64,000 nucleotides of DNA from Roseiarcus fermentans (GTDB taxonomy: Bacteria > Pseudomonadota > Alphaproteobacteria > Rhizobiales > Beijerinckiaceae): contig NZ_QNRK01000032.1 of assembly GCF_003315135.1 (NCBI RefSeq), positions 1 to 64,000 on the forward strand. Direction: 5' to 3'. Below the pieces are notes generated by a model, which saw nothing but the letters and a program-made list of their open reading frames with translations, was not told the DNA's origin and did no database searches. Within the stretch, counting starts at the first letter, position 1. Each line of letters begins with the position of its first letter. Made by a program: the position numbers and the translations under genes. Positions 1 through 60,520 of this stretch are shown here, in pieces.

Positions 1-186
1 ACGAAGACGCGGAGCAGCCCCGGACGCAACTCGGACATGCGGAACAAACCCGCGTATTAGAGTTTGATCACCGACGTCCAACAGGCTTCGCCCCCACCCC
101 TGCGCAATCATCCGAGGCCATCCTTCCTCCCAACAAGGAGCGGAGACGAGATCGCGTGTCCGACCTCTTGACGAAGGACATAAGAG

Positions 187-370
187 CAATCCATGCCGCC
201 GCTTGCTTCCTGCGGAAAAAATCGCTCCGTCTTCTGCTCGCAACGAAGGGCGGCGGGACGACCAGAGGGCGCGACAGCGGCCCAGCGGCCCTGGATCGCT
301 TCCCCCCGGGCTCTTCGACCCGGGGGTCGCTCGCGATGACGGCGCTATTCGCTGCCGGCTTGGGAGTTAC
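187..370. repeat. MITE-like palindromic repeat, copy A (left end missing)
   Basis: The right terminus GGCTTGGGAGTTAC at 357-370 matches the right ends of the copies at 54.7, 55.0 and 60.0 kb. The inner part, including the hairpin around CCCCCGGG..CCCGGGGG (about 304-336), is nearly the same as 55057-55210 and as the reverse complement of 60022-60140. The left terminal repeat is not visible; similarity starts near GCAATCCATG at 188. A long open frame crosses the element but has no protein-like character over it. Confidence 0.7.
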
Positions 371-534
371 AGGCGATCGTAATGACCAAGCCCGGCGTAC
401 GAGCGGCGGTCACGGCGCTCAACGGGAGCGGCGGCGTCTCGCCGCCGGGGCGCCCGAGACGCGCACCCTCCCAGGGCGCGCCCTGTTCGGCTCCGCGCGG
501 ACAGCCATCTTGGTCGTTACGGGCTCCGTGGGGC

Positions 535-27301: not shown

Positions 27302-27520
27302 TGGCGCCCGTAACGGCCAGGGCGGGGCTCGCTTCGGCCGTCATCGCGAGGAGCGAAGCGACGTGGCGATCCAGGAGTCCGGGACGCCGACGCCTGCCGC
27401 CAGTGGAGTCCGGCGCTCCGGCAGCCGGCAGCGCAGACGGCTCCTGGATCGCCGCGTCGCCCTTCGGGCTCCTCGCGATGACGAAGGGCAAGGACCCCAC
27501 CTTGGCAGATACTCGCGCCC
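27302..27520. repeat. MITE-like palindromic repeat, copy B, with target duplication
   Basis: Large inverted repeat: GTCATCGCGAGGAGCGAAG.. near 27340 pairs with ..CTCCTCGCGATGACG near 27480, each arm continuing into GGCGATCCAGGAG/CTCCTGGATCGCC. The outer ends are divergent (GTAACGGCCAGG at 27310; CCTTGGCAGATAC ending 27512). The flanks TGGCGCCC (27302-27309) and TCGCGCCC (27513-27520) match at 7 of 8 positions, like the 8-bp duplications of other copies. The gene-free remainder of 27159-27783 shows nothing else. Confidence 0.65.
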
Positions 27521-54657: not shown

Positions 54658-54746
54658 CCGCGGCGACGCGGCATCCGTGCGCGCCACCGGGCCTCGGGCG
54701 CGGAATCAATCCTTTCAGACGGTTGCGCGGGATTTTTCGGGCGGTT

Positions 54747-54984
54747 GCAACTCCCAAGCCATGGCGCGCCTTGGGAATGACGGGCGGTCGTCAATGCCGA
54801 GGTGGGGGCGATGACGCTTCCCGCCGTCCTCGCGAGGAGCCCGAAGGGCGACGCGGCGATCCAGGGGCCGCCTGCGACGACGTTGAAGCGCGGCGCCGCC
54901 CGGCCAGACGGCAGACCTCGGCCCCGCCCCTGGATCGCCACGTCGCTTCGCTCCTCGCGATGACGGCGGCGGCTTGGGTGTTAC
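54747..54984. repeat. MITE-like element, copy C, both ends present
   Basis: Left end GCAACTCCCAAGCC (54747-54760) and right end GGCTTGGGTGTTAC (54971-54984) are inverted repeats. Internally CTCGCGAGGAGCCCGAAGGG.. pairs with ..CTTCGCTCCTCGCGATGACG, with GGCGATCCAGGGGC/GCCCCTGGATCGCC inside. The flanks are GGGCGGTT at 54739-54746 and again at 54985-54992, a perfect 8-bp direct repeat. Confidence 0.78.
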
Positions 54985-54992
54985 GGGCGGTT

Positions 54993-55238
54993 GCAACTCG
55001 CAACCCCGTCTTTGCGAGGAGCAACCCCCGGGTCGAAGAGCCCGGGGGGACGAAGCAACCCATGCCGCCGGTTGCTGACTGCGGAAAAAATTGCTCCGTC
55101 TTCTGCTCGCGACGAAGGGCGGCGGGACGATCAGAGGGCGCAACAGCGGCCCAGCGGCCCTGGATCGCTTCCCCCCGGGCTCTTCGACCCGGGGGTCGCT
55201 CGCGATAACGGCGTTCTTCACCCCACCTTGGGAGTTAC
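54993..55238. repeat. MITE-like element, copy D, adjacent to copy C
   Basis: Left end GCAACTCGCAACCC (54993), right end CCTTGGGAGTTAC (55226-55238). The right flank is GGGCGGTT (55239-55246), the same 8-bp word that lies before copy C and between C and D. The core (55057-55210) is almost identical to copy A at 187-350, including the CCCCCGGG/CCCGGGGG hairpin. Confidence 0.75.
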
Positions 55239-58774: not shown

Positions 58775-59300
58775 TTATCTCGGGCAGGGCTGACCGGGCG
58801 GGCCGCAGGGAGGTCCGTGTGCGGCGCCTGCCGGCGGCGCGGGAACGACGGGCGCCGCAGGAGGCGGGGCCGCGTGGACGACGGGCGCCGGCGGAGAGGG
58901 CGGGGCGGCGTGAACGACGGGTGGCGGCGCAGGCGGCGGGGCCGCGTGAGCGACGGGCGCCGCTGGGGCGGGCGGCGCATGAACGACGGGCGCCGGGTTC
59001 GGCGCGATGGTCTGGGCCGGGCCCCGGGGAACGAGCGGCGGCTTGGCCGTCGTCGGCGCCGCTGGCGCTCCAGCGGGCGGTTTCCCGGCCGGTGGAACGC
59101 CAACCGGCGCCGGCAGCGGTTTGCCGAGCGGCGGCGGCGTTCGGGGCGGCGTTCCGGGCGACTTCTCCACAGGGGTCGTCGAGGCCGGCGGCGCGGGAGC
59201 GCCCGCGGCCGGGCGCCCGGCCGGCGGAACGGGATTGCCGGGAGGGCAGAGGGCGGCTGATGTGTCGCTCCCGACCGCGGATCGTGATAAGGATGCGCTT
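58775..59300 (-). CDS. Pro/Ala/His-rich repeat protein, start uncertain
   Basis: A minus-strand frame ends in a long Pro-rich stretch with tandem units of the type PVVHAAPPP (about 58845-58995 at DNA level, units of 33-36 bp), finishing CGPPGQPCPR. The upstream part, CPPGNPVPPAGRPAAGAPAP, is also Pro-rich. No convincing start codon or signal peptide is found; the frame is open into the Uma2 gene. It may be a real envelope protein with an unrecognised start, or a remnant. The opposite strand gives a Gly/Arg-rich frame that I reject. Confidence 0.4.
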
Positions 59301-59893: not shown

Positions 59894-59992
59894 CCTCAGG
59901 CGACCACGACATCGTCACGGTCTTGCATCGTCTGGCTCGGCGCAAAGGTTTTGGCCTGCGGAAGCTTAAACATCGTGTGCTCGCTGTGCAAC

Positions 59993-60185
59993 GTAACTCC
60001 CAAGCCGGCAGCGAATAGCGCCGTCATCGCGAGCGAAGCGAAGCGATCCAGGGCCGCTGGGCCGCTGTCGCGCCCTCTGGTCGTCCCGCCGTCCTTCCTT
60101 GCGAGCAATTTCTTCCGCAGGAAGCAAGCGGCCGCATGGATTGCTTCGTCGCTTTGCTCCTCGCAATGACGGGGTTGGGAGTTAC
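59993..60185. repeat. MITE-like element, copy E, complete with target duplication
   Basis: Left end GTAACTCCCAAGCC (59993-60006); right end GGGGTTGGGAGTTAC (60171-60185). 193 bp. The flanks TGTGCAAC (59985-59992) and TGTGCGAC (60186-60193) are an 8-bp direct repeat with one mismatch. The interior is the reverse complement of copies A and D. It lies between the Uma2 gene and copy F. Confidence 0.8.
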
Positions 60186-60243
60186 TGTGCGACCAAAAAA
60201 TCGCCTCAGGGCCTTGATGTTCCGAGCCATTCGCGGACCATTG

Positions 60244-60462
60244 GTAACTCCCGACCCCGTCATTGCGAGGCGCAACCCCCGGGTCGAAGAGCCCGGAAGG
60301 ACGAAGCGATCCACGACGCCGTTTGCGTCCGTTTTGCAAGGATTGCTCCGACTTCTGCTTGCAACGAAGCCCGAGGCACGACGGGACGATCCACGAGCCG
60401 CAACAGCAGCCAGGTGGCCTCTGGATCGCAGCGCTTCGCTCGCGATGACGGCGTTCTTCTTC
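60244..60462. repeat. MITE-like element, copy F, right end degenerate
   Basis: Left end GTAACTCCCGACCCC (60244). Inner arms GTCATTGCGAGG.. and ..CTTCGCTCGCGATGACG (to 60450). The right terminal repeat is not recognisable, but GACCATTG (60236-60243) and GTCCATTG (60463-60470) match at 7 of 8 positions. The glutamate dehydrogenase start follows 58 nt later, so the element forms part of its upstream region. Confidence 0.6.
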
Positions 60463-60520
60463 GTCCATTGAGCGTGGTAGAAGGTCTGGCGCCGACGCTC
60501 CCCGGAGGACAACCACCCCC

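Follow-up and report, generated by a model that had tools for sequence, protein, structure and literature searches.

The window, by which we mean the whole 64,000-nucleotide stretch of Roseiarcus fermentans DNA analysed here, carries copies A to F of a dispersed palindromic repeat (Table 1). Throughout, flank columns are counted outward from an element, columns 1-8 being the target duplication. Element E ends in 14-bp inverted termini, GTAACTCCCAAGCC and GTAACTCCCAACCC (reverse complement), and the 8-mers just outside them, TGTGCAAC and TGTGCGAC, match at 7/8 positions, as the preliminary description had read them. It folds into a single long hairpin (-102.4 kcal/mol, z -6.87), and a search of its own genome with E as query returned 53 matches, the majority covering query bases 1-193. 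The genes to the left and right of E match different contigs of relatives among the matches listed. The same architecture had been claimed for B, C, D and F, and it held for B, with flanks matching at 7/8, and for C and D, each flanked by GGGCGGTT/GGGCGGTT at 8/8, the middle 8-mer being common to both. Beside B, the profile of the target motif discussed below scores 18.8 at 27513, yet column 29 reads TTGG, not TTGA. F fits the claim in part: its left end lies at 60244 with GACCATTG and a second 8-mer, GTCCATTG (7/8), stands at 60463-60470, but the right inverted end is missing before that 8-mer, and F is therefore doubtful under the duplication rule. Copy A had been said to keep only its right end, which we place at 357-370; the left is cut by a contig break, probably within an IS110-type insertion, since the window starts at the first base of its contig (C32).

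Table 1. Repeat elements, target duplications and target motifs in the window
Feature	Positions	Strand	Basis
IS110-family element within A, probable 3' end	1..184	+	Inferred: 77% match beside the G027 IS110 transposase
Copy A, right 186 bp of the MITE	185..370	+	Shared contig ends
Old copy of the second, 142-bp MITE family, 8 bp from A	379..520		Sequence comparison
Element B, degenerate ends, duplication TGGCGCCC/TCGCGCCC 7/8	27310..27512		Window reading
Target motif CAACCGTCTGAAAG, columns 22-35 outward of the C/D array	54712..54725	-	Flank columns, profile
Element C, 238 bp	54747..54984		Duplication 8/8 GGGCGGTT
Element D, 246 bp, arrayed with C (three GGGCGGTT)	54993..55238		Duplication 8/8
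E left target duplication TGTGCAAC	59985..59992		Read from window
Element E, 193-bp MITE with CGTC-REP dimer	59993..60185	+	53 own-genome matches; fold z -6.87
E right target duplication TGTGCGAC, 7/8	60186..60193		Read from window
Target motif TTGATGT, columns 29-35 outward of E	60214..60220	+	Flank columns
Copy F, left end present, right inverted end absent	60244..60462		Window reading

Allowing up to two mismatches, the 14-bp end occurs 153 + 144 times in the genome, compared with 19 + 10 occurrences of a reversed-pattern control. Stretches around the end matches, 254 kb in all, gave 100 end-bounded elements; three overlapping readings were dropped, leaving 97, and 96 of these have both flanks, one element at a contig edge having no left flank. 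Flanks taken in register match at 8/8 in 57/96 elements and at 7/8 in 23/96, while each of 18 off-register offsets gave 0-1/96. With 80/96 elements matching at 7/8 or better, the flanks do show 8-bp repeats genome-wide. Six of the 16/96 elements below 7/8 lie in contigs C14 and C36 and seem to belong to a two-element unit that moved together; the remaining ten appear decayed or have no evident cause. These two-element units (G000 C14:17480-17917 and C36:37795-38233) have an internal spacer of 9 bp, and the one in C14 carries an outer 8-bp duplication, GGGCGGCG, the two-MITE composite seeming to have moved as one.

Two of the three insertion sites queried proved empty in same-genus genomes. At C20:123889 the joined flanks align ungapped to G007 (226/272 identical); the 8-mer in G007 is a diverged one, and the gene that the element interrupts belongs to an ABC-transporter type of which many paralogues exist. 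At C7:182060 they align ungapped to G004 (197/272), where TGTCGAGC occurs once. For the third site (contig C2) no spanning match was seen among the matches listed. MITEs read in relatives (n=6) have duplications of 8/8 in 4 cases, 7/8 in 1 and 2/8 in 1. The MITE structure first proposed from the window is supported by the many copies, by their duplications, by the empty sites and by a full-length relative that shares the ends (see below), and it is near certain that E and its relatives are MITEs. At G000 C23:90248 a MITE interrupts an ORF that resembles a BrnT-type toxin-antitoxin gene.

Most elements carry a head-to-head CGTC-REP dimer, which is cargo of the MITE. The core is present on both strands in 85/97 elements (up to two mismatches), on one strand in 1/97 and on neither in 11/97, and 71/97 have exactly one core per strand. 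The preliminary description had presented the copies as repeats of the 'GTCATTGCGAG' type; the core does lie inside most elements, but GTCATTGCGAG is the CGTC REP and also occurs outside MITEs. Exact CGTCATYGCGAG cores number 190 + 190 (380) in the genome, against 0 for the control. We sampled 20 unread regions among the first 100 places listed, accepting ends with up to 3 mismatches each and flanks of at least 7/8: 17/20 had no recognisable end pair with flanking repeat and 3/20 had one, a count that may miss composite places because this simple search treated the cores of each region together and sought one end pair enclosing them all. The same-genus genome G009 has many CGTC cores among the matches listed, and the exact 12-bp MITE end is absent from it. 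Since cores stand outside MITEs and G009 has cores without the ends, palindrome and MITE can be separated, and the palindrome is probably the older of the two. The core is CGTC, not the GTAG-tagged core of the REPIN/RAYT systems. Cores without MITE ends, mainly short head-to-head dimers, were read at L226 466-566, L228 476-535, L227, L229 and L234 475, part of them between imperfect inverted TGAATTGAGGT and CCTGATTTCA, which may mark a further family of palindromic elements.

The MITEs are very probably mobilised by the IS66 family, of ISBst12-like type, as the ends are common with an IS66 transposase-bearing element and the target duplication is 8 bp. Four contig ends of the genome (C16, C64, C43 and C13) read GTAACTCCCAAGCCG and then, close by, the stop of an ORF. 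The 50-residue C-terminus of those ORFs matches NCBIfam IS66 (E 3.3e-7, positions 345-385 of 387) at 29.7 bits, far below the whole-protein cut-off of 180, and a Pfam search with it did not match IS66. Contig ends C11, C48 and C25 have the same 15 bp with another interior. The flanking 8-mers pair these ends as C43-C11, C16-C48 and C13-C25, which is what the two ends of one inserted element should show; for C64 no partner was seen. A single IS66 remnant in G004 has both end types and mismatching 8-mers, and its ORF matches both Pfam IS66 and NCBIfam IS66. A search for a full-length transposon with the MITE ends, suggested at the outset, succeeded in Octadecabacter (the comparison covering 2 of the six IS66 places listed in two records), where plasmid copies of 1605 bp are bounded by GTAACTCCCAAG on either side, encode a single transposase annotated as IS66 and show an 8/8 duplication. 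The own genome gave such ends at contig breaks only: no complete autonomous IS66 copy with them was read there, the interior being missing at the breaks. An IS66 element of 1547 bp from Bradyrhizobium has GTAACTGCCCAG ends and an 8/8 duplication, and ISDge4 of the ISBst12 group has, in the accessible text of PMC12898284, ends GTGACTACTCAGCA / GTAACTGCTCAGCA and an 8-bp repeat. A peptide scan of genome contigs confirmed at least two loci, in Caldilineaceae and Psychromonas. The IS66 elements in C72 and C12, with two long transposase ORFs, were considered as the source and set aside, matching ends being absent from the stretches read. Because ends, duplication length and target motif are shared, the IS66 transposase would be expected to move the MITEs in trans.

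That target motif lies to one side of the insertion. Of the 71 loci entering the flank counts (2/73 lacked a full flank), 37/71 have [CT]TGA at column 29, exactly 20 bp outside the duplication, against a mean of 0.64 and a maximum of 6 for other columns, and 0/71 have it there on both sides. CAA occupies column 22 in 33/71 loci. Expectation maximisation with the side left free reached a log-likelihood of 743 versus 230 +/- 14 (maximum 255) for 10 random sets, using 20 restarts for the data and 5 for the random sets. Element orientation relative to the motif is unbiased (18 vs 15). Searching with the core motif found 21 places in G000 and 0 for the control; at least 10/14 end letters lie exactly 8 bp upstream in 14/20 of the G000 rows listed, compared with 0/8 in relatives, and with the four already-used rows removed 10/16 G000 places have an end 8 bp away. 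IS66 copies of the own genome have the motif at 3/4 insertions. It is missing at 34/71 loci, at 1/4 own-genome IS66 insertions, at 4/6 MITEs of relatives and at 13/15 single IS66 ends of other genomes, the motif-bearing 2/15 being 1/7 in G043 and one in G004; by eye, it is also absent from the three plasmid copies, two of Octadecabacter and one of Bradyrhizobium. Its absence at many loci, in relatives' MITEs and at foreign IS66 ends means that the motif is a preference, which may be lineage-specific. The offset can be read directly from the flanks; the motif would be recognised by the transposase or by a partner protein.

Arrays of 2-4 elements no more than 20 bp apart make up 16/73 loci and 40/97 elements. 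In most, a single 8-mer is repeated between and around differing element types, as in the C18 array, where five copies of AATTGGAC surround and separate four elements; other spacers measure 7, 9 and 16 bases. In all 8 of the 8 arrays with a one-sided [CT]TG at column 29 the motif-proximal element has fewer end mismatches, and in 5/5 of these arrays with varying 8-mers (the C14 composite excluded) the variant 8-mer is on the far side. The array in C2, with its motif shifted by one base, has the opposite order of decay, and in 7 further arrays the motif was not seen in exact register, one side being unread in two. The arrays apparently grew at the motif side, an order of growth that we infer, and they are most simply read as the product of successive insertions into the 8-mer on the side of the motif.

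It might be argued that the flanks are an older dispersed repeat that tolerates insertion and that the transposase reads no motif at all. About half of the loci do have flanks belonging to repeated families; three such families recur, and in relatives they lack the inverted ends (the 0/8 rows above), the first of them occurring there without MITE ends. However, the motif persists outside the three families, where 11/35 loci, E among them, keep [CT]TGA at column 29 (mean 0.45, largest other column 4, Poisson P 2.5e-12) with a pairwise flank identity of at most 0.46, and its register is exact to one base. We therefore consider the older repeat an unlikely explanation, and directed insertion the better one. 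In the three dispersed flank families, read in G000 and also at G001 L193 and L197, a direct repeat recurs after about 42 bp (CGCCCGG...CGCCCGG; CGGAACCGA...CGGAGCCGA). At this lag the repeat value is a clear 0.357 over the 71 loci and 0.312 in the 36 loci that the filter of this count places outside the families, other lags mostly giving about 0.26, and being weak outside the families it is not claimed as general.

Related elements are able to recombine, and the arrays could accordingly have arisen by homologous recombination or slippage rather than by re-insertion; mixed lengths and families (142, 205, 226 and 236 bp) standing under one 8-mer, for example AATTGGAC, speak against this, and we judge it improbable. 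Still harder to sustain is the idea that CGTC REPs are moved by an enzyme of their own and that the GTAACT ends and 8-mers are incidental. The abundance of exact cores genome-wide, some outside MITEs, would suit it, but in 12/97 same-ended elements the two-strand core is missing, 11 having no core at all, and the duplications are located at the GTAACT ends; the chance that it is right seems very slight.

The preferred reading, to which we give a probability of roughly 0.8, joins cross-mobilised MITEs, a CGTC-REP dimer as cargo, motif-directed insertion and polarised arrays. An ISBst12-like IS66 transposase would recognise the end GTAACTCCCAAGCC(G), cross-mobilise the MITEs and cut the target with an 8-bp stagger. 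Insertion would be directed: at many sites CAA is found at 13 bp and (C/T)TGAAAA at 20 bp from the duplicated 8-mer, and on a single side of it. After an insertion, the 8-mer copy nearer the motif keeps its register, and it could therefore receive later elements, each lodging between the motif and its predecessor, so that the arrays become polarised. We also favour, with more reserve, the wider proposition that an ISBst12-type IS66 system has a one-sided, sequence-directed choice of target (20 bp from YTGAAAA, 13 bp from CAA), builds polarised, time-ordered arrays of miniature transposons and serves as a vehicle of CGTC REPs.

Tn7-type insertion keeps a constant spacing from the site that is recognised, and dif-directed insertion by the IS1202 family reportedly does so too. 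The fixed offset here is alike, but the motif is looser, the sites are dispersed and no targeting protein is known. The ISBst12 group, as represented by ISDge4 (PMC12898284, accessible text) and the Octadecabacter IS66 copies, shares GTAACT.C.CAG-like ends, the 8-bp duplication and a single transposase ORF, whereas the one-sided motif is absent from that part of the account and from the two Octadecabacter copies, and small non-coding derivatives dominate here. The closest published case that we found, judged by the accessible text of PMC5896051, is QMITE2 of Coxiella burnetii, also a REP-containing MITE, with a REP that is targeted by IS1111 and direct repeats of variable sequence (7-11 nt); its REP is GTAG while ours is a CGTC dimer, and that text mentions no IS66-type ends, arrays or target motif. 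Alphaproteobacterial CGTC REPs are described in the accessible text of PMC3733652 as CGTC-tagged hairpins, mostly head-to-head dimers as here, which apparently lack a dedicated transposase, whereas many of those studied here lie inside an IS66-ended MITE. The combination of MITEs, IS66 ends, target motif, arrays and CGTC repeats was not recognised among the open PMC papers listed, as far as their accessible text extends. As CGTC REPs are widespread in alphaproteobacteria and reported to be apparently without a dedicated transposase (PMC3733652, same text), IS66-ended MITEs offer a testable vehicle for them. A fixed-offset motif together with arrays would make the order of insertions readable from sequence, and would provide a concrete substrate for testing how the ISBst12 group chooses its targets; the accessible text of PMC12898284 calls the transposition of this group insufficiently characterised.

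Copy A has a history of its own. Bases 1-370 of the window are common to seven contig ends at 93-100% identity; their left part is foreign and joins the MITE at one identical point in all seven. Bases 16-108 have a 77% relative in G027, where an IS110-family transposase (NCBIfam E 1.6e-75) lies about 110 bp upstream of it. Given that adjoining transposase, an IS110-type element has most likely interrupted the MITE of copy A, and did so at one fixed point of its palindrome, the right junction being the one seen. IS elements that target REPs include the IS110 family (PMC1525189, accessible text). The likeness here is an IS110-type end at a fixed palindrome point in 7 contig ends, with the REP lying inside a MITE. 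The second MITE family, represented next to A, is 142 bp long and GC-rich; its ends are of the same type, but it lacks a CGTC core. Eight of the 97 elements, measuring 138-142 bp, belong to it, the copy at 379-520 not counted, and the outer 8-mer of that copy, GGGCTCCG, is unlike AGGCGATC. Elsewhere in the window, at 58832-58996, there are GC-rich imperfect repeats spaced 33 and 39 bp (family D3).
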